In this document: piece after piece, positions 12,052 through 29,412 of the stretch | How positions within the stretch are numbered: the stretch's first letter is position 1 | Layout: the number at the start of each line of letters is the position of its first letter | Source: Cellvibrio sp. OA-2007 | Lineage (GTDB): Bacteria; Pseudomonadota; Gammaproteobacteria; Pseudomonadales; Cellvibrionaceae | Direction: 5' to 3' | Assembly: GCF_000953825.1 (NCBI RefSeq) | Contig: NZ_BBUL01000020.1 | Coordinates: 124,001-188,000 of the forward strand | DNA length: 64,000 nt | Made by a program: the position numbers and the translations under genes | Notes under the pieces: model-generated | Seen by the model: the letters and a program-made list of their open reading frames with translations, nothing else | What the model was told of the DNA's origin: nothing | Database searches by the model: none

Positions 12052-12065
12052 TGACCACCTCACAA

Positions 12066-13384: not shown

Positions 13385-13558
13385 CGAGTTCCGGTAAATA
13401 CCTCTTCGACTTCGGTCTGGTGTTACATGCATGATCCCAATTGATCACCTCAAAGCAATACCGCCAATTCTGCATCATGATGCGTTAGCACTATCCCTCT
13501 CAGTTCATGATCTGCAAAACCTATAGTTACCATATAACTTTAACGTGAGCTGGATGTT

Positions 13559-14086
13559 ATGGATACAAATGGAATGGCGCAAATGATTGTGGATAGCGTG
13601 AGCTTTGCCAAGCGTGCCCACATCGACTTACCAAATTCTCCCGATGACGCAATCCGTTTTCATGATCGCACCACTCCCTATATCGTGCATCCTATCTGGT
13701 GCGCCATGACTATCATGACTGAAACGATTCTGGATGAGGGATTGCGACTGAAAGGATGCCAAGCGCTGATGTGGCACGATGTGCTGGAAGATACCTGTGC
13801 GGAACTGCCAATTGATACGAGCGACGAGGTTCGGCAACTTATTCATGATATGTCCTCTGCAAATTTTGCCGTCGAAGTAAATTTAGTGTGGGAAAAATCA
13901 AAAGAGGTTAGGCTGCTGAAGCTTTACGATAAAACTTCCAACTTATTAGATGCTTCGCATTTCTCGAAAGAGAAGTGGAATAACTACGTCAAATTCACAC
14001 AATTATTAATTAATGATGTTGAAAATAACTTTGGCCAACTAAACATTATAAAGATTGCGCGAGCAATAGCGGTTTCTAGACTTTAG
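13559..14086 (+). CDS. HD-domain protein related to RelA/SpoT-type hydrolases (175 aa)
   Basis: The sequence shows F-A-K-R-A-H near residue 17, R-F-H-D-R-x-x-P-Y-I-V-H-P near 33-45, W-H-D-V-L-E-D-T near 73-80, and a later L-x-K-L-Y-D-K-T-S-N-L segment. This order (H, HP, HD-ED, K-D-K-x-N) is that of the HD hydrolase domain of SpoT/RelA and small alarmone hydrolases, but only the hydrolase part is present. Possible activity is Mn-dependent hydrolysis of (p)ppGpp-like nucleotides; this is inference. It is shorter than the full SpoT HD region. It may be a defence or stress-response gene in the cargo. Confidence 0.65.
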   Translation: MDTNGMAQMIVDSVSFAKRAHIDLPNSPDDAIRFHDRTTPYIVHPIWCAMTIMTETILDEGLRLKGCQALMWHDVLEDTCAELPIDTSDEVRQLIHDMSSANFAVEVNLVWEKSKEVRLLKLYDKTSNLLDASHFSKEKWNNYVKFTQLLINDVENNFGQLNIIKIARAIAVSRL

Positions 14087-14208
14087 CTTCGGAAAATTAA
14101 TTGGCAGCGACCAACTAGTAGTTCGCTGCACAGGTCGCACGCATGTGTCCGTACCAATTAAATTCTACTCATTTCTGTAGTGTATGATAGACACCACGTT
14201 GCTACGTG

Positions 14209-15342
14209 TTAGCCAACTATTTCCTTCCAATTGTCCGTTAAAATTCGGCCGACCTGTTTAATTTCGTCCTCCGTTGTTGATATCCCTACTGACAATCTTA
14301 CTGAACCGCGCGCGCGGTCAGCAGATGCACCTATCGCCGCCAATACTCCGCTGATTGCATCGCCATGTGAATGGCAGGCTGATCCTACTGACGCAGCGAT
14401 CTGGTCCGCTGCACTTTCAAGAAGTGCCCGGCCACTAACACCGGGAAACGAAATATTTAGTGTGTTAGGAAGTCTATGCTCTGGATGGCCATTCAAAATG
14501 ATTCCGGGAATACCTGCTTGTAATCGGCTGAGTAATTCGTCGCGTAATTGTTTTAAATAAGGTTCAGCCTCCGGTAGCCGTGCGGCAGCTAAACGCGCAG
14601 CTTCGCCCAGTGCTGCAACTGCAATAACATTTTCTGTTCCCGGTCGAAGACTGCGCTCGTGACCTGCGCCATACATGATCGGGTTAATAGGTGTGCCTTC
14701 ACGCACATACAACGCTCCCACACCTTTTGGGGCATAAAATTTATGGCCTGCAATGGTTAATGCATCAACCCCCAATTCGTTCACATCGACTTTCACTTTG
14801 CCAATGGATTGAGCAGCATCTACATGCAGCAGTACGTCCCGCGCCCGCGCGATCCGAGCGATATCGGAAATGGGCTGGATGGTTCCAATTTCATTATTGG
14901 AATGCATGATGCTGATCAGCGCGGTATCCGGGCGGATGTGGCTCGCAAGTACTTCAAGATTGATTAATCCATTGGCATCAACTGGCAATACCGTAAGATC
15001 CCAACCTTCCCGTTGTAATTGCAAACAGGGCTGCATAACGGCTGGATGTTCAATTGCGCTGGTGATGATATGTTTTTTATTTACGTTGGCGCGCGCCATT
15101 CCGAGGATCGCAAGATTATTGGACTCGGTGGCGCAGCCAGTAAAAATAAGTTCTGCTGGATTGGCAGTAATTAGTTGCGCAACCTGCGCACGTGCAAGCT
15201 GAACCAATTCATTGGCGCGACGACCGTAGGCGTGACTGGAGGACGGGTTTCCAAATTCAGCCAGGCACTGAGTGATCAGGCTGATCACCTCTGGCGCAAT
15301 AGGTGTTGTTGCGTTGTAGTCGAGATAAATGGGTGTGGTCAT
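14209..15342 (-). CDS. PLP-dependent cysteine desulfurase / selenocysteine lyase-like (377 aa)
   Basis: This is a class-V aminotransferase fold enzyme of the NifS/IscS family: N-terminal Y-L-D-Y-N-A-T-T-P, the PLP lysine in A-G-H-K (Lys201) and the catalytic cysteine in S-V-G-S-A-C-H-S (Cys323). The short loop A-C-H-S-x-G-D around the cysteine resembles mammalian selenocysteine lyase (A-C-H-S-D-H-G-D) as I recall it, more than the longer IscS loop. It releases sulfane sulfur, or selenium, from cysteine or selenocysteine. It is the last gene of a minus-strand operon, 21 bp after the outer-membrane protein gene, and shares the region with sulfur-handling genes on the other strand. Confidence 0.88.
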   Translation of the reverse strand: MTTPIYLDYNATTPIAPEVISLITQCLAEFGNPSSSHAYGRRANELVQLARAQVAQLITANPAELIFTGCATESNNLAILGMARANVNKKHIITSAIEHPAVMQPCLQLQREGWDLTVLPVDANGLINLEVLASHIRPDTALISIMHSNNEIGTIQPISDIARIARARDVLLHVDAAQSIGKVKVDVNELGVDALTIAGHKFYAPKGVGALYVREGTPINPIMYGAGHERSLRPGTENVIAVAALGEAARLAAARLPEAEPYLKQLRDELLSRLQAGIPGIILNGHPEHRLPNTLNISFPGVSGRALLESAADQIAASVGSACHSHGDAISGVLAAIGASADRARGSVRLSVGISTTEDEIKQVGRILTDNWKEIVG

Positions 15343-15363
15343 AGAATAAAACCCTATTGGTAA

Positions 15364-16608
15364 TCAGTAGGCAAGGCGCAGTGTTAAATAGAGGTTGTCG
15401 TTACGATCAAACGCACCGAACATGCCTTGCGAATTTCCTGAAAAAACATTTGTTCCGATTTCGCCCCAAAGATTATCGTTAAACGCATATCTGAGTGTGG
15501 ATTGTAAAAATCGGTCAGATTCGCTCAGCCCCCAATAACTAAATACATTAACCGTTAACGTTTGGTGCATGAGGAATTGTGTGAATCGTAGCGTAGCAAC
15601 CCTGTTCAACTCCGCCGATATTGCCGAAGCCGATGACGCGGCGGCTCGGTATGCGGAATAGTTTTCCATGTGCTCAATATAAAATTGCACACCCAGTGTG
15701 GAGTCTTTCCAAAGCTGCCGATTGTAACCGCTCAATAGGCGGATCTGGCTATTTTGAATGAAGGGATTTGAACCAGATACATCATCACGTGAATCGTAGT
15801 AACCCGCTTCAAGATTCAATACACCGTTTTTAATTTGCCCTGTAACACTTGCACCGTAGGTGTTCATGCGTGGGTAGAAAACGTTGGTTCCCGGCGCTGC
15901 AATGGCCGGTTGATACGCTGCTCTGCGCCAATAACCTCTTGATACATAACCGCTGACATCCCACCCTGAAAAGGAACGAGAAAGTTTTCCGGCGTATTCC
16001 AAATCATCATCATTCGATTCACTTGTAATCGGAGGCGCTAATAAGGGGAATTGCATTTCAAAGCGTCGCATCTCCGGCAAATGATCCTCATCGAAGCGCG
16101 CGATAACTGTTTCAATCGTTGTATTGCCAGGATAGAAATCAAACTTGATCGCATCGGTTGGACGTTTGAGGAAGTCCATTGGCATTCCACCAAAAAAAGC
16201 ATTCCAATCTTTGGCGAACACATCGTTGATAAACAGCATATCACCTGTGCCCCAAGTGATCATTTGCCGCCCGGATCTTAAATGGATGGCGCCTTTTGTC
16301 CAATCCCAATAGAGTTCACGCGCCCGTGCACTGGTTTCGTCAAAGACGAAATCCTGAACCAGCTCCAGATTTGCAGTAAACGAATGCGCATTCTCATTGG
16401 TTGTATAATCTGCTTTTAGTTGTGCACGCAGTTCTGAAAATGGAATCTCACAATCACTGCTGTCACACGATTCAGTGTGCGCCCTGGCGGTGGTGTGAGA
16501 CTGTAAAATCCCATTCACCTCGGCGCTGACTTCCGGGTTAATAAGTATCAAGAGACTCATTGCCAAAATCGGTAACGATTTACTGTATACAAAATCCATG
16601 CGCGTCAT
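15364..16608 (-). CDS. Outer-membrane beta-barrel protein (414 aa)
   Basis: An N-terminal signal peptide (about residues 1-29, ending V-S-A) precedes a sequence of alternating amphipathic strands, ending in L-T-L-R-L-A-Y with an aromatic last residue, as in BAM-inserted barrels. The family resembles DUF1302-type or porin-like proteins that accompany RND/MMPL transporters. The W-G-T-G-D motif near residue 107 recurs in such proteins from memory. The ATG overlaps the stop of the LolA-like gene (ATGA). It probably forms the outer-membrane part of an export route with the two upstream genes. Confidence 0.75.
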   Translation of the reverse strand: MTRMDFVYSKSLPILAMSLLILINPEVSAEVNGILQSHTTARAHTESCDSSDCEIPFSELRAQLKADYTTNENAHSFTANLELVQDFVFDETSARARELYWDWTKGAIHLRSGRQMITWGTGDMLFINDVFAKDWNAFFGGMPMDFLKRPTDAIKFDFYPGNTTIETVIARFDEDHLPEMRRFEMQFPLLAPPITSESNDDDLEYAGKLSRSFSGWDVSGYVSRGYWRRAAYQPAIAAPGTNVFYPRMNTYGASVTGQIKNGVLNLEAGYYDSRDDVSGSNPFIQNSQIRLLSGYNRQLWKDSTLGVQFYIEHMENYSAYRAAASSASAISAELNRVATLRFTQFLMHQTLTVNVFSYWGLSESDRFLQSTLRYAFNDNLWGEIGTNVFSGNSQGMFGAFDRNDNLYLTLRLAY

Positions 16609-17408
16609 TTAACCCATTGCTGCGGTGGGTTGCGCAGATAGCGTTCCGTAAAGATATCGACCTCAAGCCCGGAGTTATAATTGATGTCTTGATAAGTGAC
16701 ATCTGTGCGATATCCGGTTTGTAAGTTTTTCATTGTTCTGGCGGTGATCGTCCATATGTCAGCGATGCTCTCCACTTTAACGGCACTGAACACACGGGAT
16801 GGACGGTTGCGCAAATCAAAATATTCTTCACTCAAGGGCAACCAGCGCTCTTTGTCGATCAATGAGACCCGGCGACTATAATCAATCGGTTTTACCGGCT
16901 TGCTTTCAATGCGATAGACCGGTCTGCCTTCAAATGTTTCTTCACCGAGCAGTGCATGTGTTTCGTCGGCAACCTCTCTGCCAGAAACATCTTCGTAGGT
17001 AAAATCTGATCCCACAAACGAAGAGCGTTTATCATCAGACGCAATACGCTTCACTAATTTAATCGCGGGCACAAAGATCCAGCGATCATCTTCTTTTCCG
17101 GTGAATTTCTGCACTAGAAATGCAGTCCCTTTCACATCAGTGGGGCGATGGAAATAGGTGTAGTAACGTTGCTCACCTTCAGCTCCATTTAAACGGAGCA
17201 TAGTCATCTCCCGCTCGCGTATATCACCTTTTGGATTCACTAACTGCATGGTAACTTTGGTACGCATATCAGTACCGGCATAGTAGGTCGCATCCAGTGA
17301 ACGCTGCACAATCTCAGTCGCGTCCATTGCTAAACTCATTGAGGGCACAACGGCCAGACCCGCCAAAAAAAGTCCGGGATTGATGAGTTTTTTAATCAAG
17401 AAAATCAT
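16605..17408 (-). CDS. LolA-like outer membrane lipoprotein-sorting protein (267 aa)
   Basis: A signal peptide (to about residue 27, S-L-A-M) is followed by the LolA/LolB-like fold seen in proteins annotated as outer membrane lipoprotein-sorting proteins: M-D-A-T-E-I-V, M-T-M-L-R-L, R-W-I-F-V-P-A, G-S-D-F-T-Y-E-D and W-L-P-L-x-x-E-Y-F-D motifs. Such proteins are regularly encoded next to MMPL/RND transporters. It overlaps the genes on both sides by ATGA, so the three are one operon. It is probably a periplasmic carrier for a hydrophobic or lipid substrate. Confidence 0.85.
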   Translation of the reverse strand: MIFLIKKLINPGLFLAGLAVVPSMSLAMDATEIVQRSLDATYYAGTDMRTKVTMQLVNPKGDIREREMTMLRLNGAEGEQRYYTYFHRPTDVKGTAFLVQKFTGKEDDRWIFVPAIKLVKRIASDDKRSSFVGSDFTYEDVSGREVADETHALLGEETFEGRPVYRIESKPVKPIDYSRRVSLIDKERWLPLSEEYFDLRNRPSRVFSAVKVESIADIWTITARTMKNLQTGYRTDVTYQDINYNSGLEVDIFTERYLRNPPQQWVK

Positions 17409-19765
17409 GCGCCTTCTCCAATAGAAGTGACTGCGGATGCTGAAGAGCGGGTATCAGACAGTGCTTTTTTGACGAATAACCAACGTTGAAATAGTAGGAT
17501 TAACGCCGGGAGATAAATTAATGTGGTTAATGCGCTCACTAACATCATGCTCAGGATGAATGCGCCTACCGTAATGTAAGGGGTCAGCGGTGCAAACATC
17601 ATTACTGAAAACGCAGCAGCAAATAAAATGGCATTACGCATGATGCCTTTGCCGGGGCGCGCAGCTGTCCAGAGTAAATTATCGGCAAGGGTTTCGCCGG
17701 TTGTTGCTGTCTCATCCATTCGCTGGCGCAAACGGCTAATGAAATGAATGGAAAAATCGACCGCCATGCCGAGTGATAGACATGAGAGTACGGAGATGGG
17801 CATATCAAAATCTTTGCCAGTAAATCCGATCACGGCATAAATCATCATGATGGTAAACAATAGTGGGATGTACCCAATCAATGCCCACCGGATTGAGCGG
17901 AAATTAAAGGCGAGTAATATAAAAACAACGAGCAGTGCCAGAATAAATCCTTTGAGCATGTCCCAGAGAACTTCGTCATTCCACACTACGTTGAAATAGG
18001 CTGTGCCCGCTGGCTTGAATTCCAGCTCGATGGGGTTTTGCAGTTGGTAGTCCTCAACAGCGCGAATAACAGTTCGCATCGCCTCCGCATCCCATGTCTT
18101 CAATTGCAGCCAAATGTTGGCTTGCTGGAATGGGTAGTCAACCACGTTATCGAGGTCGGACTGTTTAGCAGACATACCGAATAAAAACAGATATTGGGCA
18201 ATCGTATCGGCATCGGTTGGAATCACATAAAAATCGGCGTCGTCTTCGTGCAATACGCGATTGATGCGTTTGACATAATCGACAATCGAAAAGGTTTTAC
18301 CGACCTCTGGTAGAGACTCCAAATGGCGCTGCAAACCATCGAGATATTGCATAGCTTCTGGTGTTTTTATCCCTTCGGCTTGTGGTGCAATGGCAACAAT
18401 ATAGCCTGATGCTGTACCACCGAGAGATTGGTTGATTTTTTCATCTGCAATTCGCACTTCACTGCTTTTGGTAAACCATTCGACCAAATTATTATTGATG
18501 TTTATTTGGGTAATACCGATAACGGAAACTCCCATCAACACAGCGCCAATTGCGATTATCTTTTTCGGGTGGTTGACGCCGGTACCGGCAAGTCTTGTTA
18601 GCCAATGTGTGGAAGCTTGCTCTTTGCTGTTTTCACGAGCGACGGCGGCGAGAATTTTTTTCTCATCCATCATCATCAATAACGCGGGGATTAAGGTAAA
18701 GCTCAACAGGCGAAGCAACAAGGTACCGAAAACAATCACACCGCCGAAGACTTGTACGGGAATGATTTCCATAAATAACAGCACTGCAAATCCGGCGGCT
18801 GTTGCGAAGGCCGTATAGCGTACCGGACGACTTACCGCATCCAGAGTTTCATGAATGGCCTGTTGTTTGTTGCCGCCAATGCGATAGCGATGATAAAACT
18901 CATTGAAAATATGAATACTGTCTGTGGCAATCGCCATCAGGAAGACGGGTGCCATGGAACTCATAATATGCACCGGAAAACCCAATCCGATTAATAATCC
19001 CATGCTGCATAAAATACTGACCATAGCGACGGCCATCATGGACATGGCCAGAGGCAAACTGCTGAACATCCAGAGGATAGCGATAAACATGATCATCCCG
19101 GCGATGGGTGCAAACAGTCCCATCATGGTGAACATATCCGCACCAAAGGTATCCCTGACAACCGGATCACCGGCAACATAAAAATCATCACTGCCCTCTT
19201 GCGCAGCGATAATGGCGCGGATGTTATCGGCTACCTGTTTGCCGTTAGCACCTTCTTCCAAGGGCACATAGAGAGCGGCCATGGTTTCGTCTTCGGAGAT
19301 AATCCGGTCGGTGAAGAGCGGATTTCCAATTAGTTTGGCGCGCAGGGTTTCAAGTGCGGCAGTAGTCGTTGGTGCTTCCGCCATCAGCGGAGCGACATCC
19401 AGTCCCTCGCTGTCCGCACTGATATGGTCAATCGTGTTGAAGCTGACCAAATCGCGCGCGGCGACACCCTCTATCGCTAATATCTGTTCAGTGACCTGAT
19501 GTATTTTGCCCAACGTCTTGAGGTTGAGGACGCCAGCATCGTTGTGCACAGCCACAACGATGGTGTCTTCATATAGCCTGAAGGTTTGTTCGATCTCATC
19601 ATTCCATACCCGTACCGCCGATTCAGGCGGCAGCATATTTTTCGGATTGGTATCCAGAGTGATGCGCGGGAACTGGGTGCAGAATAACGCGGTAATGATG
19701 AGTGTTATGGCTGCAACCCAGCGGGGATGATGGGTCGCGAATTCCACTAATGTGTGTTTGCGCAT
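17405..19765 (-). CDS. RND/MMPL-family transporter (786 aa)
   Basis: A single N-terminal membrane helix (about 15-32) is followed by a periplasmic domain, a group of membrane helices at about 215-370, a second periplasmic domain and a second helix group at about 610-765. This two-fold arrangement is the RND superfamily plan in its short MMPL/sterol-sensing-like form. Motifs G-D-P-V-V-R and A-T-D-S-I-H-I-F in the first half and M-A-V-D-F-S-I-H-F in the second are typical. It is the first gene of the operon with the LolA-like, barrel and desulfurase genes. Its start lies 290 bp from the divergent arsR-type gene, with a palindromic site between. Confidence 0.88.
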   Translation of the reverse strand: MRKHTLVEFATHHPRWVAAITLIITALFCTQFPRITLDTNPKNMLPPESAVRVWNDEIEQTFRLYEDTIVVAVHNDAGVLNLKTLGKIHQVTEQILAIEGVAARDLVSFNTIDHISADSEGLDVAPLMAEAPTTTAALETLRAKLIGNPLFTDRIISEDETMAALYVPLEEGANGKQVADNIRAIIAAQEGSDDFYVAGDPVVRDTFGADMFTMMGLFAPIAGMIMFIAILWMFSSLPLAMSMMAVAMVSILCSMGLLIGLGFPVHIMSSMAPVFLMAIATDSIHIFNEFYHRYRIGGNKQQAIHETLDAVSRPVRYTAFATAAGFAVLLFMEIIPVQVFGGVIVFGTLLLRLLSFTLIPALLMMMDEKKILAAVARENSKEQASTHWLTRLAGTGVNHPKKIIAIGAVLMGVSVIGITQININNNLVEWFTKSSEVRIADEKINQSLGGTASGYIVAIAPQAEGIKTPEAMQYLDGLQRHLESLPEVGKTFSIVDYVKRINRVLHEDDADFYVIPTDADTIAQYLFLFGMSAKQSDLDNVVDYPFQQANIWLQLKTWDAEAMRTVIRAVEDYQLQNPIELEFKPAGTAYFNVVWNDEVLWDMLKGFILALLVVFILLAFNFRSIRWALIGYIPLLFTIMMIYAVIGFTGKDFDMPISVLSCLSLGMAVDFSIHFISRLRQRMDETATTGETLADNLLWTAARPGKGIMRNAILFAAAFSVMMFAPLTPYITVGAFILSMMLVSALTTLIYLPALILLFQRWLFVKKALSDTRSSASAVTSIGEGA

Positions 19766-19835
19766 AGGGTTAAGGAATCCTTTTAGCTACGGGTGCTTAT
19801 ATCAATACCTGACACCTGAAGCGTCATTATCTTAT

Positions 19836-19855
19836 ATTCAATTATTTAATTGAAT
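19836..19855. promoter_or_regulatory. Palindrome, candidate ArsR operator upstream of the RND operon
   Basis: ATTCAATTA, two bases, TAATTGAAT: a near-perfect 9-2-9 palindrome, followed by GCTTGA. The right half with its extension (TAATTGAATGCTTG) matches the right arm of the palindrome at 21215-21244 in all but one base. It sits 70 bp upstream of the RND gene start. Confidence 0.6.
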
Positions 19856-20026
19856 GCTTGACTAGAATATCTGCTTCAAATAGATTGTCAAGGCAATGAG
19901 GATTCAGGGGTTGATCAGTAGCAGCCGCCAATAAGAGTTTTTTTGCAGGCAATACCGTTTTATTCAGTGAATTAGAGTCTGGGGAGCACATAGCTGTTTG
20001 ATGAATGGCGTTTGGAATCTATAATT

Positions 20027-20040
20027 CAAGCAATCAATTG
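20027..20040. promoter_or_regulatory. Half-site, candidate ArsR operator at its own gene
   Basis: CAAGCAATCAATTG is identical except for the last base to the left arm of the 14-2-14 palindrome at 21215. It lies 14 bp upstream of the start of the regulator gene, overlapping its probable ribosome-binding region. This is the place expected for autorepression. Confidence 0.5.
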
Positions 20041-20054
20041 AAAATGGAAAATCC

Positions 20055-20729
20055 ATGACCTCCTCAAACAGACAGTTCAAAGATTCACTTTACGAGCAAT
20101 TGGCGCGTATCGGAAAAGCCTTGGCTAGTCCCATTCGATTAGAACTGCTTGATGTATTGAGCCAAGGGCCGCGCACCGTTGAATCGATTGCCAATGAAGT
20201 AAACCAGAGTGTGGCGAACACGTCGCAGCACTTGCAGATTCTCCGATCTGCGCGGGTGATTGAGTCCGAACGCAATGGAGTCAACATCATCTACCGGCTC
20301 GCTGATCAGGAAGTACTTGGGTTATGTGGAGTACTTCGTCGCGTGGGTGAAGCGCGATTGTTGGAAGTTCGCCAGGTGACCGAAGCATTCTTACGCGAAC
20401 GCGGCGCGCTTGAGCGAACCGACAATGAAACGTTGCTTGAGCGGGTAAGGCGCGGAGAAGTCACCGTATTGGATGTACGTCCATCGGATGAATTTTTAGC
20501 AGGCCATATTCCGGGCGCAATCTCTGTTCCCCTGTCTGAGCTGGAACAGAAAATGGCTGGTCTGCCCCCGGATCGTGAAATTGTTGCCTACTGTCGTGGG
20601 CCATTGTGCGTCATGTCGATTGAGGCCGTGAATCGGTTAAACGAAAAAGGCTACCAGGCAACACGTTGGGAAGAAGGCGTGGCGGATTGGGTAGCGAGAG
20701 GATTTGCAATACAAACGGGTGCTGTTTGA
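20055..20729 (+). CDS. ArsR-family regulator fused to a rhodanese domain (224 aa)
   Basis: Residues 12-95 form an ArsR/SmtB winged helix (I-G-K-A-L-A-S-P-I-R-L-E-L-L, V-N-Q-S-V-A-N-T-S-Q-H-L-Q-I-L). Residues 115-220 form a rhodanese domain with V-L-D-V-R-P-S-D-E-F, G-H-I-P-G-A and the active-site loop Y-C-R-G-P-L-C. The classical metal-binding C-V-C motif of ArsR is not present, so the likely signal is sulfane sulfur or a related thiol/selenium species sensed by the rhodanese cysteines. It is divergent from the RND operon and upstream of the DsrE and ABC transporter genes. Three related palindromes at 19836, 20027 and 21215 are its probable operators. Confidence 0.9.
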   Translation: MTSSNRQFKDSLYEQLARIGKALASPIRLELLDVLSQGPRTVESIANEVNQSVANTSQHLQILRSARVIESERNGVNIIYRLADQEVLGLCGVLRRVGEARLLEVRQVTEAFLRERGALERTDNETLLERVRRGEVTVLDVRPSDEFLAGHIPGAISVPLSELEQKMAGLPPDREIVAYCRGPLCVMSIEAVNRLNEKGYQATRWEEGVADWVARGFAIQTGAV

Positions 20730-20809
20730 CGGGAGATTAGTAGGAAGTTACGAACGTCCCTCTTGATCCAGTGCCTACCAACACCACAGGAAATCAAGAG
20801 GAAACAGAC

Positions 20810-21163
20810 GTGAGCAATATTTTATTCATATTGAATGATGGACCATACGGAACCGAACGTAGCTACAACGGTGTACGCCTTGCAGGCGCTATCGCCAAGC
20901 GCGCGTCTGACGATGTGCGCATATTTTTGATGGGAGACGCCGCTGTCTGCGCCAAGCGCGGCCAGAAAGTTCCTCAAGGTTATTACAACCTTGAACTGAT
21001 GTTTGGGCCGGTTATTCGCCGTGAAGGCAAGATTGGTGTTTGCGGCACTTGTATGGACGCGCGCGGTATGACCGAAGAAGAGTTAGCAGAGGGTACCCAT
21101 CGCGGAACGCTGGAAGAACTCACTGATTGGACACTTTGGGCTGACAAAGTCCTGGTTTTCTAA
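20810..21163 (+). CDS. DsrE-family sulfur-relay-like protein (117 aa)
   Basis: The start chosen is GTG 20810, preceded by AAGAGGAAA, giving the typical opening V-S-N-I-L-F-I-L-N-D-G-P-Y-G-T-E-R-S; the frame is open from 20771 without support. The protein carries M-G-D-A-A-V-x-C and a G-V-C-G-T-C-M-D-A-R-G motif typical of DsrE/DsrF-like proteins that carry persulfide on a cysteine. It ends at V-L-V-F as in the family. It lies 80 bp after the ArsR-rhodanese gene and before a terminator, so the two form one short transcription unit. Confidence 0.88.
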   Translation: MSNILFILNDGPYGTERSYNGVRLAGAIAKRASDDVRIFLMGDAAVCAKRGQKVPQGYYNLELMFGPVIRREGKIGVCGTCMDARGMTEEELAEGTHRGTLEELTDWTLWADKVLVF

Positions 21164-21182
21164 GTAGTACTGAGAATGTGAT

Positions 21183-21202
21183 ACGCCTACTGGCGTTTTT
21201 TA
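21183..21202 (+). terminator. Rho-independent terminator after the dsrE-like gene
   Basis: ACGCC, four-base loop, GGCGT, then a run of T. The stem is short but the T-run is clear. Confidence 0.6.
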
Positions 21203-21214
21203 ATAATAAATAGT

Positions 21215-21244
21215 CAAGCAATCAATTAAATAATTGATTGCTTG
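21215..21244. promoter_or_regulatory. Perfect 14-2-14 palindrome, candidate ArsR operator of the ABC transporter operon
   Basis: CAAGCAATCAATTA, AA, TAATTGATTGCTTG. This is the most perfect of the three related sites around the arsR-type gene, and lies 136 bp upstream of the ABC ATPase start. It probably overlaps the promoter of the transporter operon. Confidence 0.65.
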
Positions 21245-21379
21245 GCAAAACCACTGACTCAGATGCATTACTTCAACACTACCCAGCGTCCAGGATGCGG
21301 CTGTCGTGAGTGTTGTAGACGTTTATGAGCAGCCAGTAAACCCCGTGAAACCTGACACTCGGGGGAAAGGAGTCAAGTT

Positions 21380-22198
21380 ATGAATCCACATATTTTGCCA
21401 AGTTCACAACCTGTGAGTGGCCAAGCTCCCGTCCTCGAACTCAAAGCGGTATCGCGGTATTGGGGTAAACGGGCAGCCATCAACAATCTCAATCTGACCA
21501 TTAAACCTGGCGAAACGGTCGCCCTTATTGGGCCAAGCGGTGGCGGAAAATCCACGCTTATCCGCCTGTTGGCAGGTGTACTTAAACCCACTCAAGGGCG
21601 GGTACTGGTCGCGGGAAAAGACTTGGCCAAAATGTCAGCCACCGAGCTGCGTTATCACCGCGCCCATTCACGCATTATTGAACAAACCCATTTGCTGGTG
21701 CCGCAATTGTCGGTTCACCAGAATGTGGTCGCGGGAAAATTGCCTTTGTGGCCATGGCACAAGGTCATGGCCTCAGCGCTTTGGCCCGTAGAAAAGAAAC
21801 CGGTACATGCCCTATTGGAATCCCTTTCCATTGGTGAGCACCAATGGCGCCCGGCAAGTGACCTTAGTGGTGGTCAAATGCAGCGCGTCGCCATTGCACG
21901 GGCACTTATTTCTGCGCCCACCACATTGCTGGCCGATGAGCCAACAGCTTCGCTTGATCCAGCCACCGCCCGCGCGGTAACCGAAATTATCCTCAATCAA
22001 GCCAAAGAGCGTGGCGTCACCTTGGTTTTTTGCACCCATTGGCTCGACGCAATTATGCACCGCTGCGACCGCGTCATCGGATTGCGTGAAGGCACATTAG
22101 TGCTGGATGCAAAACCCTCAGAAGTTACTCAGGATGCACTCAACTTGCTTTATCAGGGGAGTGAAGAACTGCATGAGGGAAACAATGAGCGAATTTAA
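21380..22198 (+). CDS. ABC transporter ATP-binding protein, PhnC-like (272 aa)
   Basis: Walker A G-P-S-G-G-G-K-S-T, the signature L-S-G-G-Q-M-Q-R, Walker B L-L-A-D-E-P-T-A and a switch histidine (C-T-H-W-L) are present. The size and sequence fit the phosphonate-type importer ATPases (PhnC group). GGGGGAAAGGAG lies upstream of the ATG. It overlaps the permease gene by 14 bp, and the substrate-binding protein gene follows. The substrate is not necessarily a phosphonate, since no phn catabolic genes are nearby; selenate or another oxyanion is more likely from context (inference). Confidence 0.9.
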   Translation: MNPHILPSSQPVSGQAPVLELKAVSRYWGKRAAINNLNLTIKPGETVALIGPSGGGKSTLIRLLAGVLKPTQGRVLVAGKDLAKMSATELRYHRAHSRIIEQTHLLVPQLSVHQNVVAGKLPLWPWHKVMASALWPVEKKPVHALLESLSIGEHQWRPASDLSGGQMQRVAIARALISAPTTLLADEPTASLDPATARAVTEIILNQAKERGVTLVFCTHWLDAIMHRCDRVIGLREGTLVLDAKPSEVTQDALNLLYQGSEELHEGNNERI

Positions 22199-24299
22199 CC
22201 GTAAGCAGGAGCTTAAGCGTTACCTGGTTTGGTTCGTCGTTGGGCTCACCTTTGTTCTGGCGATGGAAGGAACCCATGTTAATCCGGGTGCACTTTTTGA
22301 TCGCGATGGGATACGCAACGCCGGTGAATTGCTAAGCGGCTTGCTTAGCCCAAATCTATCGCCGGATTTTCTCCACCGTATTTTCCTGCTGTCTTTCGAG
22401 AGCTTGTTTGTCGGGATTCTGGGGACAGTGTTTGCCGTTGTTATTGGTATTGGTTTGGCGATGTTTGCCATCCGCATACCTGAATTACCCGATCCTCCAG
22501 GGCGCCAGGGGCGTCGTCAATCTTTTGTGGTTGCCACTGCCAGAACAGTGTCCCGTTTTACGCTGGGCTTTTTCCGGTCAATTCCCGAGATTGTGTGGGC
22601 TTACCTATTTGTGCAGATCCTCGGTCTCGGGCCGGGCGCGGCGGTACTGGCTATTGGCTTAACCGTGGGTGGTTCTATCGGCAAGCTCTACGCTGAGCTG
22701 GCTGAAGCAGTAGATCGACAAATTATCGGTGGCCTGCGAGCTGCTGGCGTGGGGCGCTGGGGCATTTTAATGCACGGTATTTTGCCGCAGGTAAAGCGCC
22801 AATGGGTCGCTTATGCGCTCTTCCGGATGGAGTGCAACATCCGCACGGGCACGATTCTGGGTGTGGTCGGTGCTGGTGGTTTGGGTAGTGAAATTGCCCT
22901 GAGTATTCGCTATCTCGAATTCGATAAATTAGCTACCACACTCATCGCGGTGCTCATGTTTGTAATTGCACTCGAATGGGTCAGCGCTTATCTGCGGCGT
23001 CACCCGGTTAAATGGTCATTGCTGTTCGCCGCTGTTGGCGGGATAGCCAGTTTTGCGTATCTCGATATTCCCTGGATGGATTTGCTAACAGGAAACTGGA
23101 GCAATTTGCCCGGCACTACCGAGTTCGATCTCAGCGCTGAATTTCTCGGTAAAACCGCCACGTTGGTATGGCAAACCTTATTGATGGCATGGATCGCCAC
23201 GCTGCTTGCCGCCGTCTTCGCATTCTTCCTTGCTCCGCTATCCACTAGATCGTTAGTAACGGGTAGCTACCTGAGTCAAACCTACGGTAAACGTGGGCTT
23301 TCGCTGTGGATGTCGCGTTTGCTGCAAAGCGGTTCGCAATTTTTCTTGCAAGTTACGCGCGCAATGCCGGAGCTGACACTGGCGCTGGTTTTTGTTGTCT
23401 GGGTTGGGCCGGGTGCCTTGGCCGGGATTCTTGCGATTGCGGTACACAATATTGGCGTATTGGGTCGCCTCTACACCGATGTTTATGAGGAGGTAGAACC
23501 CGGCCCCGCCAAGGCGATGCAAGCGAGCGGTGCCAGTGGTTTATCGACCTGGTTGTACGCCGTACTACCTCAGGTCAGTCCGCGTGTACTGGCGTTTACG
23601 CTCTACCGGTTTGAGGTCAATGTAAGGGCAACAGCGACGGTCGGGTTCGTGGGCGCGGGTGGTATTGGTGACTCGCTCTATACCTCTATCAGCTTGTTCC
23701 ATATCAGTGATCTGGTAGTGCTACTTGTGGTAATGGTGGCGGTTGTCACGCTAGTGGATCAGGTAGGCGACCGCATGCGCAAACGCATTCTCAATGGCCC
23801 TTCATGCGAGCCGCCTTTAGCGCAGCGGTTGGCGAACTTGTTTTCACGCACGAGCGGCGCGCCGCTGACATCACCAATGACAAGCGATATTCCAAAACTG
23901 GAAGTAGCCCAGCTTTGTTGTCGTTGTGGTGCTGCGCCTGCTTTCAGTGTTATTCGCCCGGTCTCACTCTCATCCCAAGGATTAACATTTATTTCCGACA
24001 AGTTTCTACCCACTGGATTGATGGTGCAGCTTGTCGTGGTGTATCCCGATGGAAAATTATCGTCTGTGATAAGTGCCCGAGCATGCCCTGCTGTTTCACC
24101 TGCACACAGCATTGACAGTAAAACTATAAAAAATTATCTCAGCTTTATTGAACCAGCACCGGATTTTCTCTCGGCGATGATTGTTATTGCGCAGCGAGAT
24201 GCCGCGTATTTTATTGACGATAGCGAGTGCTCTACTCACGAAAAAAATGCACGCGGTAATGCATCTATCTCTAGCCAACTGGATAGCACTATCGCATGA
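22185..24299 (+). CDS. Duplicated PhnE-type ABC permease with extra C-terminal domain (704 aa)
   Basis: ATG 22185 is preceded by GAGGGAAACA; the frame is open from 22107. The protein contains two fused permease units, each with an EAA-type loop before L-P-Q-V (L-A-E-A-V-D...A-A-G-V-G in the first, E-V-E-P-G-P-A-K-A-M-Q-A-S-G-A in the second). Phosphonate-type importers are usually homodimers; this fusion supplies both halves. The last 165 residues (about 538-704) are not membrane-spanning and carry S-L-S-S-Q-G-L-T-F and G-L-M-V-Q-L-V-V-V-Y-P-D-G-K-L, which look like a degenerate PilZ-type domain. The RxxxR part of a c-di-GMP site is not visible. Confidence 0.88.
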   Translation: MSEFNRKQELKRYLVWFVVGLTFVLAMEGTHVNPGALFDRDGIRNAGELLSGLLSPNLSPDFLHRIFLLSFESLFVGILGTVFAVVIGIGLAMFAIRIPELPDPPGRQGRRQSFVVATARTVSRFTLGFFRSIPEIVWAYLFVQILGLGPGAAVLAIGLTVGGSIGKLYAELAEAVDRQIIGGLRAAGVGRWGILMHGILPQVKRQWVAYALFRMECNIRTGTILGVVGAGGLGSEIALSIRYLEFDKLATTLIAVLMFVIALEWVSAYLRRHPVKWSLLFAAVGGIASFAYLDIPWMDLLTGNWSNLPGTTEFDLSAEFLGKTATLVWQTLLMAWIATLLAAVFAFFLAPLSTRSLVTGSYLSQTYGKRGLSLWMSRLLQSGSQFFLQVTRAMPELTLALVFVVWVGPGALAGILAIAVHNIGVLGRLYTDVYEEVEPGPAKAMQASGASGLSTWLYAVLPQVSPRVLAFTLYRFEVNVRATATVGFVGAGGIGDSLYTSISLFHISDLVVLLVVMVAVVTLVDQVGDRMRKRILNGPSCEPPLAQRLANLFSRTSGAPLTSPMTSDIPKLEVAQLCCRCGAAPAFSVIRPVSLSSQGLTFISDKFLPTGLMVQLVVVYPDGKLSSVISARACPAVSPAHSIDSKTIKNYLSFIEPAPDFLSAMIVIAQRDAAYFIDDSECSTHEKNARGNASISSQLDSTIA

Positions 24300-24348
24300 A
24301 AGGATTAACCCCAACCCTCAACACTAACCCTTAACAAAAGGAATCTTT

Positions 24349-25236
24349 ATGAAAACTTTTTCTTCAATGTGTAAACCCTGGCAGCGTTTGATCGCGGCTT
24401 TGGTTGTCGGCGGTAGCTTGCTGACATCTGCTGTTTCCTATGCGGCTGACGACGTTATCCGCGTGACAGGTATACCTGATGAAAACCCGACTGAACTCGC
24501 ACGCAAGAATCAACCATTGGTGGATTATCTTGAAAAGAAACTCGGTAAAAAAGTGACTTATGTTGCCGTCACTGACTATGGCGCAGCTGTTTCCGCCCTT
24601 TCAGCTGGCAAAATTGATTTTGCCTGGCTAGGTGGATTTACATTTGTTCAAGCACGTCATCTGGCAGGAGCCGAACCACTGGCCATGCGCGACATTGATC
24701 GTAAATTCAAAAGTGTGTTCATCGCTAATACAACTTCCGGTATTGAAAAGCCTGAAGATTTTAAAGGCAAAACCTTTGCGTTTGGCTCAAAAAGCTCAAC
24801 CTCAGGCCATCTAATGCCACGTCATTATTTGCTCAGCCTCTTGGCGATAAATCCTGAAAAAGATTTTGCAAGTTTGCCTGTTTACAGCGGCGCTCACGAT
24901 GCAACCGTAAAGTTAGTTGAATCCGGCAAGATCCAAGGTGGTGCGCTCAATATTGAAGTGTGGGACAGAATGTTGGCGGAGAAAAAATTCGACGCTAAAA
25001 AAGTCAAACTGGTATGGACTTCACCCGAGTACGTAGATTATGTATGGGCTGCCCGTAAAGGTTTATCGCCAGAATTGGTTGCCAAATTTAAAGATGCATT
25101 TTTGAATCTTGACCCAAGTGTTCCCGAGCAAAAAGCAGTGCTTGAATTACAAGGTGCAAAAGTATTCGTTGCCGCGAATCAAAGCGATTTTGACTCGATT
25201 GAAAAAGTCGCACGCGATACAGGTCTGTTGAAATAA
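24349..25236 (+). CDS. Periplasmic substrate-binding protein, PhnD/selenate-type (295 aa)
   Basis: A signal peptide (residues 1-32, ending S-Y-A) precedes a type-2 periplasmic binding protein. The motifs I-P-D-E-N-P-T-E-L, V-T-D-Y-G-A-A-V-S-A-L, W-L-G-G-F-T-F-V-Q-A-R and S-G-H-L-M-P-R match, from memory, the family called putative selenate ABC transporter substrate-binding protein (a PhnD relative). AAAAGGAA lies 6 bases upstream of the ATG. It follows the permease by 49 bp and completes the importer. The substrate is not proven; phosphonate, phosphite or another oxyanion remain possible. Confidence 0.85.
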   Translation: MKTFSSMCKPWQRLIAALVVGGSLLTSAVSYAADDVIRVTGIPDENPTELARKNQPLVDYLEKKLGKKVTYVAVTDYGAAVSALSAGKIDFAWLGGFTFVQARHLAGAEPLAMRDIDRKFKSVFIANTTSGIEKPEDFKGKTFAFGSKSSTSGHLMPRHYLLSLLAINPEKDFASLPVYSGAHDATVKLVESGKIQGGALNIEVWDRMLAEKKFDAKKVKLVWTSPEYVDYVWAARKGLSPELVAKFKDAFLNLDPSVPEQKAVLELQGAKVFVAANQSDFDSIEKVARDTGLLK

Positions 25237-25260
25237 ATAGCAGCAGCGTTTAGCAGAATA

Positions 25261-25298
25261 CAACCTGAGGCGAATGTTTCACTGTTCGCTTCAGGTTG
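25261..25298 (+). terminator. Hairpin between the binding-protein gene and the transglutaminase gene
   Basis: Arms CAACCTGAGGCGAA and TTCGCTTCAGGTTG pair over 14 bases with one G-U, around a 10-base loop. The T-run after it is weak, so it may be a partial terminator or an mRNA-stabilising structure that raises the level of the upstream binding-protein transcript. Confidence 0.5.
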
Positions 25299-25316
25299 AT
25301 TTAACGGAGAAAGTCC

Positions 25317-26237
25317 ATGAACAGAAGTCGCCGGTTTCAAACCAACTATGATGTAAAAGTGCCCGATTTTCCAAAGTCGGCGAAAGAAATTAATGTGTGG
25401 ATCCCCTTTCCCCGTTCAACTATCGATCAGGAAATACATGCAATCGATATCCAATCTAATATCGATTATAAAATCGAGTACGAATCAACTTATGGTAATG
25501 CCGTGTTGTGCGCAACACTGGATACCAGCAAAACCAGTTTGATCGATCTGGTTATTACCACTACGGCAACTCGCCATGAACACACTACGGATTTCCAGCG
25601 CTTTGCTGAAGTTCCCAATTCCAGTTGGCAATTGCACCATCAACCGCAATTGTTACCCAATCGCCTGATTCAATTCACCGCCGATATTTTGGGTATCGCC
25701 AGAAGCATCAAAGAGCAACATGTAACCGCAATAGATATCGCCAAAGCAGCTTATGATCATGTGCTCGAACACATGCAATATGATAAATCTGGAGATGGTT
25801 GGGGCAGTGGTGATGCGGACTTTGCCTGTTCCATCGGCAAAGGGAACTGCACCGATTTTCACTCATTATTTCTCGCCATTATTCGCGCGTGTGGAGTACC
25901 CGGCCAGTTTGAAATTGGCATGGCATTTCCAACGGGTATGTCCGAAGGTGATATCACGGCATTTAAATGCGGCTACCACTGTTGGACAAGCTTTTACGCC
26001 CATGGCATTGGCTGGGTGCCAGTGGATTGTTCTGAAGCGGCACAAAAAACAGATCTTCGTGACTACTACTTTGGAGCCATCGATGAAAACCGCTTTTTAT
26101 TAAGTTATGGCCGCGATTTGTTGTTGCCAGGAAGAAAAATTGATGATCCCGTCAATTTCTTCACTGACCCGATTATAGAAACAGAATCAGGCCGGGCGGT
26201 GTACTACGAAAAGAAATTAAGTTTTACCGACGTTTAA
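25317..26237 (+). CDS. Transglutaminase-like domain protein (306 aa)
   Basis: The catalytic triad of the transglutaminase-like superfamily is visible: Cys178 in G-N-C-T-D-F-H, His221 in Y-H-C-W and Asp237 in P-V-D-C-S-E-A. The N-terminal 120 residues form a beta-rich region that starts V-W-I-P-F-P, as in transglutaminase-like proteins of bacteria. No signal peptide is visible, so it is probably cytoplasmic and may act as a cysteine peptidase or amidase. GGAG precedes the ATG. It is in the same direction as the ABC transporter and the flavoprotein genes and probably in one operon with them. Confidence 0.85.
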   Translation: MNRSRRFQTNYDVKVPDFPKSAKEINVWIPFPRSTIDQEIHAIDIQSNIDYKIEYESTYGNAVLCATLDTSKTSLIDLVITTTATRHEHTTDFQRFAEVPNSSWQLHHQPQLLPNRLIQFTADILGIARSIKEQHVTAIDIAKAAYDHVLEHMQYDKSGDGWGSGDADFACSIGKGNCTDFHSLFLAIIRACGVPGQFEIGMAFPTGMSEGDITAFKCGYHCWTSFYAHGIGWVPVDCSEAAQKTDLRDYYFGAIDENRFLLSYGRDLLLPGRKIDDPVNFFTDPIIETESGRAVYYEKKLSFTDV

Positions 26238-26270
26238 CCCCATCACCAACTCAGCGTAAAAGGTAAGTAT

Positions 26271-27425
26271 ATGACTTCAGGAAAAACCATTCTGATACTC
26301 GGTGGTGGAATCGGCGGCATTGTCGCCGCTACTGAATTACGAAAAAAATTATCCAGCCAACATCGCATCGTGGTAATCGAACGACTCGCCGACCATGTAT
26401 TTCCACCATCGTTATTGTGGGTTGCATCTGGGGCTAGAGACGCAAAACAAATATCAAAACCCCTTAGTAGTCTTGCACGGAAAGGTATCGAGGTTATCCA
26501 GGGCACAATTGAACAAATTGATGCTGAAAAGAAAGCGGTGATTGTTAACGGTCAGCACCTCAATGGTGACTATCTCATTATTGCTACAGGCGCAGAGCTT
26601 GCCCCCGAAACCGTACCTGGATTAATGGCAGCAGGACATAATCTTTATTCACTAGAGGGTGCACAAGCGATCAGGAATGCCAGTTTGCAACTCAACAAAG
26701 GCAAGGTTGTGGTTCTCGTGTGCTCGATGCCCTTTAAATGTCCCGCTGCGCCCTACGAAGCGGCCATGTTGCTTGAATCGGATTTCCGCAAAAGGGGCTT
26801 GGCTAAAAATGTGAGCGTTGAGATCTATTCACCCGAACCTGGCCCAATGCCGGTTACCGGGCCGGAGGTGTCACAACAAGTTCGCACTATGGTTGAAAGC
26901 AAGGGCGTGACTTATTTTCCGCAACATGCGGTAAAAGAAATCGACCCTGTAATGCGTGAAATATATTTTGCCAATGGTGACAAAACACCATTCGATTTAT
27001 TGGTTTACATTCCTCCCCATCGCGCGCCCACCGTTGTTCGTGAGGCAGGTCTGCTAGGTGAGAATGGTTGGGTTCCTGTTGATCGCTTTAATCTGGCAAC
27101 AAAGTATCAAGATGTTTACGCCATTGGTGACGTGGCAGGTATTCCGCTCAAAAATGGAAAGCCTTTGCCTAAGGCGGGCGTATTAGCCCACGGTCAAGCC
27201 GAAGTAGTTGCCAATAATATTGCAGTCGCTATAAACGGCTCAGGTGATACAGAATCTTTCAACGGCCACGGTGAATGCTTTCTGGAAATCGGTGATGGTA
27301 TGGCAGGCATGGGTAAAGGTAATTTCTATGCCGAACCTAATCCCGATATCAAGATGAAACCGCCTGGTCGATTGTTACATTTTGGCAAGATATTATTTGA
27401 GAAATACTGGTTGTATAGGATTTGA
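26271..27425 (+). CDS. Sulfide:quinone oxidoreductase-like flavoprotein (384 aa)
   Basis: The FAD-binding G-G-G-I-G-G (11-16) is followed by the A-T-G motif (105-107) and, near residue 295, A-I-G-D-V-A-G for the flavin ribityl. Cysteines 151 and 157 in C-S-M-P-F-K-C-P-A-A-P-Y-E match the motif of SQR and flavocytochrome-c sulfide dehydrogenase relatives. The usual membrane-anchoring C-terminal region is short but ends with aromatic residues (Y-W-L-Y-R-I). It probably oxidises sulfide or a selenium analogue to sulfane form, which the rhodanese downstream would transfer. Confidence 0.85.
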   Translation: MTSGKTILILGGGIGGIVAATELRKKLSSQHRIVVIERLADHVFPPSLLWVASGARDAKQISKPLSSLARKGIEVIQGTIEQIDAEKKAVIVNGQHLNGDYLIIATGAELAPETVPGLMAAGHNLYSLEGAQAIRNASLQLNKGKVVVLVCSMPFKCPAAPYEAAMLLESDFRKRGLAKNVSVEIYSPEPGPMPVTGPEVSQQVRTMVESKGVTYFPQHAVKEIDPVMREIYFANGDKTPFDLLVYIPPHRAPTVVREAGLLGENGWVPVDRFNLATKYQDVYAIGDVAGIPLKNGKPLPKAGVLAHGQAEVVANNIAVAINGSGDTESFNGHGECFLEIGDGMAGMGKGNFYAEPNPDIKMKPPGRLLHFGKILFEKYWLYRI

Positions 27426-27474
27426 ATGAAAGGGTTTTAAAAAGTATCAAAGATTCCTAATTGAGTTACAGTTT

Positions 27475-27840
27475 ATGGCTACCACGCACCAAACACTTTG
27501 TATTCAGCCCCTAGAGCTTGAACGTTTAATTGCACAAGATAAAAGATTAATGATCATTGACCTGCGCTCGATTGGGGAATATATGCACAACCATATTTCT
27601 AATGCTACTAACATGCCCTCGACTAAGCGCCTCGTAACGCATCTTGAAGATGTGGATCGTAGTCTGAATGTCGTAATAGTTTGTAGGTTTGGGGATCAAT
27701 CGGCTCTCTTGGTAAGCCAATTTAAAGCTTTGGGCTTTGAAAATGTATTTTTTCTTTTTGGTGGAATGTCTGCCTGGGAAGAATCGCACGTGACCTCTCG
27801 CATCGTTCCTAGTGCTTCTAATACTCACCATTTGCATTAA
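27475..27840 (+). CDS. Rhodanese-domain protein (121 aa)
   Basis: A single rhodanese domain: I-I-D-L-R-S near residue 26, active-site cysteine in V-I-V-C-R-F-G-D-Q-S, and G-G-M-S-A-W at the end. The length is the normal single-domain size. It follows the SQR-like gene by 49 bp and is the last gene of the cassette. It would carry sulfane sulfur as a cysteine persulfide. Some key loop residues differ from the GlpE type. Confidence 0.85.
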   Translation: MATTHQTLCIQPLELERLIAQDKRLMIIDLRSIGEYMHNHISNATNMPSTKRLVTHLEDVDRSLNVVIVCRFGDQSALLVSQFKALGFENVFFLFGGMSAWEESHVTSRIVPSASNTHHLH

Positions 27841-28385
27841 TGGTCATCGGCTCTCCACTTTCCGACAATTTTCTTTAATGGGCGTGGCAATTTTAGCAGC
27901 CGTTATAAATTATGATAGTCGTCTGTTTTGGATTATTTGCATTTTTGGTGCGCAAGGTTGAAATTGAGTTGACGTGATGGAAAATGGGTAGGTTCCAATA
28001 CAAATCATCTCGTTAAGAGCATCATAAGACTTATCCAAAAAAATACCACCAAACAAAATTCCCGGTGTTTTGCATCGGGCATTCAGAATTATCTAATAAC
28101 GTAAATAATCAGGACAGCAAAGCGAGAGGCGTTCAACTTCAGTACTGATAAGCATCTCTTTGCGATGGCACGATTGAGCATGGATTGGAGCCCGCTCCGG
28201 TTGAAAACTTGCGTCTCAATTGGAGGAATGTATAGCAAAGTATAAGCATGTATAGCCATGTATAGGGGAAATTGGCTATACATGCTTATACTTGGCTATA
28301 CATTTCTATGAAAGGGTAGGATTTAAATATATTCGCTTTAAATATCAGTAAGTTAACGGAAAGAAACGATGCGAGGGCCAAAGCA
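27841..28385. other. Non-coding stretch with a long inverted repeat
   Basis: About 545 bp between the sulfur cassette and the HAD gene. The only strong structure is the 31-bp inverted repeat at 28227-28304. No ORF is supported. Confidence 0.5.
28227..28304. repeat. 31-bp inverted repeat with internal ATGTATAG repeats
   Basis: Arms at 28227-28257 and 28274-28304 are inverted repeats with one mismatch, around a 16-base spacer. The unit ATGTATAG occurs three times in the left part (28228, 28248, 28258), the last in the spacer. It could be an operator, a recombination site or the boundary of a former insertion. It is not an integron attC site, since the R-Y-Y-Y-A-A-C type ends are absent. Confidence 0.65.
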
Positions 28386-29012: not shown

Positions 29013-29140
29013 CGACTAATTGTCGTAAAAAACGAAATAGGCCCTTCGCTGATTCGCCAACTATATGCTCGCCACCTGTTTGACTTAGTAATTGCGCTAG
29101 ACCGAAAGGCTGTACGGGTTGGGAGGCTTGTTCGAAAACA

Positions 29141-29363: not shown

Positions 29364-29412
29364 GCTTTACATAAACAGTATACTTAATCAGCTAAATTAG
29401 GGAGTGCACTGC

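Follow-up and report, generated by a model that had tools for sequence, protein, structure and literature searches.

What would unite, around a single regulator, an ATP-binding cassette (ABC) importer of a family named for selenate, several proteins of sulfur transfer and an exporter reaching the outer membrane (OM), in a genus where the enzyme on which all known uses of selenium depend is apparently missing? The set in question is a 13.6-kb block of 12 genes at positions 14209-27840 of a 64,000-nucleotide stretch of Cellvibrio sp. OA-2007 (contig NZ_BBUL01000020.1, positions 124,001 to 188,000, here G000:C78:124001-188000; host genome, 4.6 Mb), hereafter the window. Two divergent operons flank the regulator: on the minus strand, leftward, an RND/MMPL exporter, a LolA-like protein, an OM barrel and a pyridoxal-phosphate (PLP) desulfurase; on the plus strand, rightward, the ArsR-rhodanese regulator itself, DsrE, a PhnC-like ATPase, a fused PhnE permease, a binding protein, a transglutaminase-like protein, a sulfide-quinone reductase (SQR)-like protein and a rhodanese. 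An earlier account made without database searches (the sequence-only reading) had named these parts, placed them in a Tn7-like element and proposed a mobile sulfur/selenium cassette. Every part that it listed was recovered, and its remark that it knew of no described pathway with this set agrees with the literature searched, in which we found no published description. We consider a mobile chalcogen-handling cassette with a selenite importer to be the most likely reading (probability about 0.43); the importer is the part whose selenium link is backed by genomic context.

The block is a mobile unit found in different settings. In the window, it is the cargo of a Tn7-like element, the ends of which were located starting from a repeated 19-nt site near the tnsA end. 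The first 17 bases (TGTCGGTTTAAAATAAA) are the same at both ends (TGTCGG at 76, CCGACA at 41236), domains of TnsA, TnsB (Mu-transpos_C), TnsC (TniB/AAA), TnsD/TniQ and TnsE lie at 33436-41119, and glmS (41262-43094) adjoins the tns end; with ends, target duplication and tns domains in place, the mobile setting claimed from sequence only was confirmed. In Cellvibrio UBA7671, the DNA held in common with positions 11001-30000 of the window is limited to 14207-27844 (91-95% identity). In that genome, about 38 kb separate two parts of comM (C-terminal domain at G370:C1:439416-439691; N-terminal part at 1625-2662 of locus L033, contig 477624-478661), with the cassette in between, from which we infer an island splitting comM; two sub-threshold phage-integrase matches occur near the other end of this island, and no tns match was found around the cassette in the stretches fetched. 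A third copy, in genome G698, has 73-75% DNA identity, with no tns match in the 80 kb fetched. As the cassette borders are sharp in different settings, the 13.6-kb block constitutes a unit, and the cassette proposed earlier proved coherent in this sense as well as through the clustering of 11 of its 12 genes in a Rhizobacter metagenome-assembled genome (MAG). Of the 21 genomes of the genus, 4 carry the RND gene (83-100% identity). The host's own ComM C-terminal domain (G000:C26:9646-9921) is encoded in an open frame no longer than 234 aa (versus 538 aa in G698), so that this comM, too, may be disrupted, or truncated at the end of the contig.

The importer leads to selenium through its relatives. 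We compared 17 binding-protein loci, comprising three cassettes (L004, L010, L016), four remote loci (L017-L020; 26-31% identity) and ten close ones (63-70%), with counts for the close group excluding the cassette and remote loci as well as L034, from the same species as L014. In 8 of the 10 close loci, mnmH and selD adjoin the importer; on an annotated Sphaerotilus plasmid, the order is mnmH, ATPase, permease, binding protein, selD. Gene names given below as read "by eye" come from inspection of predicted proteins from a simple home-made gene finder, and by this means the other two close importers (L012, L013) were seen to adjoin narK-like and narG-like genes. The G698 cassette (L102, 3270-19685) likewise lies near norB-like and nar-operon-like genes (by eye), a possible link of these three loci to nitrate respiration. 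Further afield, a Paracoccus plasmid relative (36% identity) adjoins selA, selB and fdnG; the neighbourhood of an Aeromonas relative (53%) contains no selenium gene by eye.

A wider sample of the class, evenly drawn (369 genomes), gave 29 genomes with a binding-protein homologue at E 1e-50, 15 of them over the TIGR04553 cut-off. Of the 14 over-cut-off importers (own genome excluded), 7 have homologues of selD (SelD or SenC taken together) and/or senB/senA at a distance of 10 kb or less, versus 0 of 14 below the cut-off (Fisher one-sided P ~0.003), counts that are lower bounds on both sides, given that several neighbourhoods end at contig ends (e.g., L156, L159, L169). In the tree, the mnmH/selD-linked clade encloses the Rhizobacter protein and has the Cellvibrio binding proteins as its sister group. 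Genomes bearing the RND exporter are also enriched for over-cut-off TIGR04553 proteins (3/5 versus 15/369 overall, P 5e-4; with the own genome left out, 2/4 versus 14/368, P 0.008). These contexts are good evidence that the importer family would serve selenium. Independently of this window, the TIGR04553 importer that recurs beside mnmH/selD or selD/senB/senA homologues (L005-L009, L011, L014, L015, L151-L153, L155, L159, L161, L163) is a candidate dedicated selenium importer.

Which ion would it carry? The closest solved structures of the cassette binding protein are 7s6g and 5lq5 (picocyanobacterial PhnD), followed by PtxB, and all ten phosphite-pocket residues listed for Pm_PhnD in PMC5700983 are present (D44, Y77, F120, S150, T151, S152, H183, N201, D230, Y231). 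By score, the protein belongs to TIGR04553, in which "selenate" is the ligand name given to a hypothetical equivalog in NCBIfam and not an assay-based assignment. Like phosphite, selenite is a pyramidal trioxyanion, present largely in its singly protonated form around neutral pH. Given the selenium context, this shape and the single protonation, which would suit the aspartate contact, therefore make selenite a better fit than tetrahedral selenate, and selenite is the ligand that we predict. The "selenate-type" importer of the sequence-only reading thus keeps its lean towards selenium, on the neighbourhood counts relative to the control group, and loses selenate as the ion, the pocket being that of phosphite binders. 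The permease carries some 150 additional residues at its C-terminus (window 23850-24299; 705 aa in all, compared to 536-563 aa in the ten close non-cassette importers). The Rhizobacter cassette PhnE is also extended (673 aa from the match start), with hardly any resemblance by eye to the Cellvibrio extension.

The sulfane-sulfur proteins pointed to from sequence alone (DsrE, two rhodanese domains and the SQR-like protein) are all part of the rightward operon. In the regulator, Cys180 and Cys185 of the rhodanese domain are invariant in 12 of 12 aligned homologues. The palindrome next to it fails as a statistically significant operator, being reached by 22 of 300 mononucleotide shuffles; it is therefore through conservation alone that the repeat stands as a candidate operator. 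The closest solved structure to the DsrE protein is YchN (1jx7). For the transglutaminase-like protein (model pLDDT, 87.1; best fold match, the putative cysteine protease 3isr), a candidate triad of Cys178, His221 and Asp237 can be proposed, of which the first two are invariant (7/7) and Asp237 occurs in the 4 cassette copies. The SQR-like protein appears to be an SQR by its FAD-binding fold and redox-active cysteine pair: in the alignment, Cys157 and Cys336, kept in 5 of 5 sequences, have cysteine counterparts in the solved SQR u55239, which we take to be the catalytic C160 and C356. An Ala-Cys323-His motif is invariant in 8 of 8 aligned homologues of the desulfurase, which scores above the cut-off of the IscS-subfamily model NF002806 (318.7 versus 304 bits) and below that of the NifS model (426.3 versus 530.75). 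As these cysteines are conserved in SQR, regulator and desulfurase, a persulfide/perselenide relay could be active.

As for the exporter, the RND protein reaches 187 bits with TIGR00921 (cut-off 351.9) and is not HpnN (TIGR03480, 101.5 bits versus 751.85). No Pfam or NCBIfam family matched the barrel at E 0.001, and Foldseek returned porins and AlgE at TM scores of about 0.4-0.6, generic matches for which the fold was dropped as a clue to cargo. Coordinates are compiled in Table 1.

Table 1. Features of the Tn7-like element and its cassette, with window positions, strand and basis of assignment.
Feature	Position	Strand	Basis
Tn7-like element, 41,161 bp	76..41236	.	Paired ends; GGATA 5-bp duplication at both flanks; glmS-adjacent
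PLP-dependent cysteine desulfurase / possible selenocysteine lyase (short name SclA)	14209..15342	-	Aminotran_5, 264 bits
OM beta-barrel, apparent signal peptide (by eye)	15364..16608	-	Model pLDDT 80.6
LolA-like periplasmic protein	16605..17408	-	PF17131, E 7e-58; also DUF1329, 1e-8
RND/MMPL (HAE3-type) inner-membrane exporter	17405..19765	-	PF03176, 1e-29
Candidate operator, inverted repeat TATTCAATTATTTAATTGAATG	19835..19856	.	Block unchanged between Tn7-borne and G698 cassettes
ArsR/SmtB repressor fused to rhodanese domain	20055..20729	+	HTH_5 and Rhodanese (Pfam)
DsrE-family protein (start may be some codons downstream)	20771..21163	+	PF02635, 3e-22
ABC importer ATPase, PhnC-like	21380..22198	+	TIGR02315, 210.6 bits (cut-off 266.1)
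Fused double permease PhnE	22182..24299	+	TIGR01097, 382.7 bits (over 216.7), 2 stretches
Periplasmic binding protein, "putative selenate" family	24349..25236	+	TIGR04553, 314.8 bits (cut-off 250)
Transglutaminase-like cysteine hydrolase, no apparent signal peptide (by eye)	25317..26237	+	PF01841 (Transglut_core), 1e-19
Type III SQR-like flavoprotein	26271..27425	+	Pyr_redox_2; solved sulfide-quinone reductases, 1e-32
Single-domain rhodanese, right edge of shared unit	27475..27840	+	PF00581, 1e-16; UBA7671 identity ends at 27844

Outside the cassette, the same element holds likely defence genes at 7794-11733, encoding an ORC-CDC6-like ATPase, a calcineurin-like phosphoesterase (with a weak match to an anti-phage phosphoesterase model) and a Dam-type methyltransferase. 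Directly beyond the cassette border (13559-14086) is a short protein with weak RelA/SpoT similarity.

Does the importer belong to the set wherever the set occurs? The most complete relative is that of the Rhizobacter MAG (L010/L028), where all genes save the last rhodanese (11/12) form one cluster of ~17 kb, with protein identities of 46-71% (27% for the barrel). Besides c-type cytochromes (by eye), this cluster also encodes an FCSD/SQR-like protein, an Fe-S subunit and a thioredoxin reductase that exceeds the TIGR01292 cut-off (384.8 versus 343.45 bits), as well as a PhsA-like molybdoenzyme that has a TAT-like start and stays under its cut-off (330 versus 694 bits). Past the terminal FCSD-like gene, SenA follows at 2.9 kb (507 bits; cut-off, 420) and SenB at 4.1 kb (442.9 bits; cut-off, 300). 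SenA, at the far side of this cluster, is 10.5 kb past DsrE; its distance from the ArsR-rhodanese gene is ~21 kb. Elsewhere, the set is smaller: G400 (L073) and G242 (L103) have regulator, DsrE, SQR, RND, LolA, barrel and desulfurase, and are devoid of importer and transglutaminase-like gene; G247 (L104) is alike save for the absent regulator and a more distant SQR (31% identity). At E 1e-100, RND homologues are found in 5 of 369 class genomes, with the core present in G000, G242 and G247; in G131, the RND gene is accompanied by LolA and barrel, and G333 has an RND gene with one in-frame stop plus LolA on a 4.7-kb contig. RND homologues of at least 50% identity were detected in 2 of 299 Burkholderiaceae, both within the cassette gene set; in the Cellvibrionaceae, one genome, G705, has a 35% homologue, which contains one in-frame stop and stands without further cassette genes alongside.

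The core (SQR, DsrE, desulfurase, exporter and usually the regulator) thus exists without the importer. Importer and transglutaminase-like gene accompany it, among the loci examined, only in Cellvibrio and in one Rhizobacter, a distribution from which both look like additions, the importer being an add-on to a wider core. In the co-occurrence comparison, which had been suggested from sequence only, the core was recovered from three further lineages, the regulator being present in two of them. The transglutaminase-like gene was rejected as a cassette marker: at E 1e-20, its 4 hits among the 369 genomes are the own genome and three distant homologues, around which the surrounding 20 kb contain nothing else of the cassette save one distant ABC ATPase match (26%). 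A fatty-acid-hydroxylase-like gene was also seen near DsrE or ArsR-rhodanese (L103, 7590-9408; L104, 13603-15592; L081; L082), paired with a DedA/VTT-type gene in L103, L104 and L081, the latter gene being rhodanese-fused in L103 and L104; for this pair, the Pfam basis is that of L104.

In the mechanism that we favour, the binding protein and PhnC/PhnE would import a pyramidal Se(IV) oxyanion, for which the context supports selenium and hydrogen selenite is the most likely form. Cytosolic thiols would reduce the ion to perselenide or selenide, perhaps helped in Rhizobacter by the clustered thioredoxin reductase. Judging from their families, desulfurase, DsrE and the two rhodanese domains may then carry zero-valent selenium (and sulfur) as protein perselenide or persulfide, and the SQR, with both redox cysteines conserved, could oxidize HSe- or HS- into the quinone pool. 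The RND, LolA-like and barrel proteins would move a hydrophobic or particulate product over the periplasm and OM. Persulfide or perselenide sensed on Cys180/Cys185 of the ArsR-rhodanese protein would derepress both divergent operons.

Several observations weigh against selenite import as the role of the cassette. (i) No selenium neighbour lies in the stretch for 7 of 14 over-cut-off and 2 of 10 close importers, with no common theme visible among those seven. (ii) The TIGR04553 genes of G247 and G333 are situated elsewhere in the genome than RND, and the core loci of G400, G242 and G247 have no importer alongside. (iii) Only 1 of 14 ArsR-rhodanese/DsrE neighbourhoods (L079) has sen genes within 10 kb. 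(iv) The 14 below-cut-off homologues keep the pocket residues almost as well; these residues thus fail as a selenite/phosphite discriminator and do not settle phosphorus versus selenium. (v) The desulfurase is far from the SclA cut-off (116 versus 525 bits, NCBIfam), and in a PDB search IscS-type chains (best 315.8 bits) ranked above two selenocysteine lyase sets (272.6 and 260.8). It has Pro100 where human selenocysteine lyase (SCLY) has an Asp, after an invariant Glu-His, that presumably gives it selenium specificity. Of the "SCLY-like" enzyme proposed from sequence only, the cysteine loop stood and the relation to selenocysteine lyase did not; the protein is a cysteine-desulfurase relative and at most a possible selenocysteine lyase.

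A sixth point concerns the host. None of the 21 genomes of the genus (16 of which are >=90% complete and <=5% contaminated) has a SelD over its cut-off, and the own genome's best match (76.8 bits) is ThiL-like by its ribH/nusB/pgpA-like neighbours (by eye). Known selenium-utilization traits require SelD or SenC, according to PMC9312934 and PMC9814287. With no SelD or SenC over cut-off in any of the 21 genomes, the genus would fall outside the selenocysteine (Sec), selenouridine (SeU), selenium-cofactor and selenoneine traits; therefore, the imported ion either has another fate or is not selenium. Selenoprotein, selenouridine and selenoneine uses by the cassette host are unlikely on account of their known SelD requirement.

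These points lend weight to a serious rival, ranked next after the selenite reading and somewhat less probable in our judgement, by which the cassette would deal with sulfur only: SQR making persulfide, DsrE and rhodaneses carrying it, ArsR-rhodanese sensing it, the exporter removing polysulfide or S8, and the importer bringing in sulfite (pyramidal too) or another sulfur oxyanion. Such a role accords with the importer-free core, with the genus lacking an over-cut-off SelD and with the molybdoenzyme, Fe-S, cytochrome and FCSD/SQR-like extras of Rhizobacter, as well as with the pairing of ArsR-rhodanese and DsrE in one neighbourhood, found in all 14 Burkholderiaceae genomes with a DsrE of 60% identity or more (13 plus Rhizobacter; ten homologues of lower identity were left out), where a persulfide-dioxygenase-like gene (by eye) follows DsrE in 3 of 10 loci read (L074, L075, L078). 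What speaks for selenite over sulfur is that the importer family sits with selenium genes and that no homologue of the cassette SQR, DsrE or rhodanese was found beside the 10 close or 28 sampled importers, a negative countered in part by an annotated rhodanese-like gene ~1 kb past selD on the Sphaerotilus plasmid. The solved relatives of the binding protein instead suggest phosphorus: Pm PhnD1 binds phosphite at 50-120 nM (PMC8786288), and PhnD1 is a likely constitutive phosphate transporter going by the title of PMC10284923. An importer of phosphite, phosphate or a simple phosphonate in what would then be a mixed bag of genes is nonetheless improbable, since selenium neighbours are found in 8 of 10 close and 7 of 14 over-cut-off loci, and neither phosphite dehydrogenase nor C-P lyase families are among the cassette profile matches. 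Slightly less probable still is a tellurite/selenite detoxification cassette centred on the RND exporter, with import as trace-level scavenging. Mobile-element setting, exporter and redox genes would suit it, as would the treatment of selenite and tellurite as pyramidal ions with common carriers in PMC8981825; an importer is odd in a resistance cassette, however, and no tellurite-resistance family is among the cassette profile matches.

The TIGR04553 context counts provide one concrete candidate importer, and the cassette, in a genus with no detectable SelD, suggests that import can feed a process besides the making of selenoprotein, tRNA or selenoneine. With its sharp borders in two settings, the unit is a ready gene set for transfer into a laboratory strain. 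The boldest form of the selenite reading, a SelD-independent, mobile selenium trait with dedicated high-affinity ABC selenite import, protein-perselenide processing and RND-LolA-barrel export, strikes us as rather unlikely. If true, it would imply that TIGR04553 PhnDCE-type importers are in general the missing high-affinity selenite transporter, and picocyanobacterial PhnD1, of unsettled cellular role, might also be counted among them.

Among known systems, it is with the mnmH-phnC-phnE-binding protein-selD operons of the TIGR04553 family that the cassette shares the ATPase type, the fused permease type and a binding protein over the cut-off, 63-70% identical to those of Sphaerotilus, Leptothrix and Aquabacterium; it differs in its extended permease and in that no selD or mnmH match lies beside cassette copies L004 and L010. 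From picocyanobacterial PhnD1 (5lq5, 7s6g), which has the same ten pocket residues as 5lq5, it is set apart in that PhnD1 was examined with phosphorus ligands, the main text of PMC10284923 and PMC8786288 containing no word in "selen-" and PMC5700983 no "selenate". Like BigR/SqrR-type operons, which we take to be persulfide-sensing, it has an ArsR repressor with sulfur-transfer genes nearby, whereas its own ArsR carries a fused rhodanese domain and remains below the NCBIfam cut-off for BigR, the sulfite/persulfide repressor (39.6 versus 155 bits). The SQR has the two aligned cysteines of u55239; unlike the seleno subtype of type III SQR (NF049943, 253.6 bits versus a cut-off of 525), it has no in-frame TGA. 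The selenoneine sen cluster is approached in that senB and senA lie near the Rhizobacter cluster and near over-cut-off importers, whereas the Tn7-borne cassette genes include no sen gene. The element as a whole resembles Tn7 in its TnsA-E domains, glmS-adjacent site and 5-bp duplication, and differs in its cargo, the probable chalcogen cassette.

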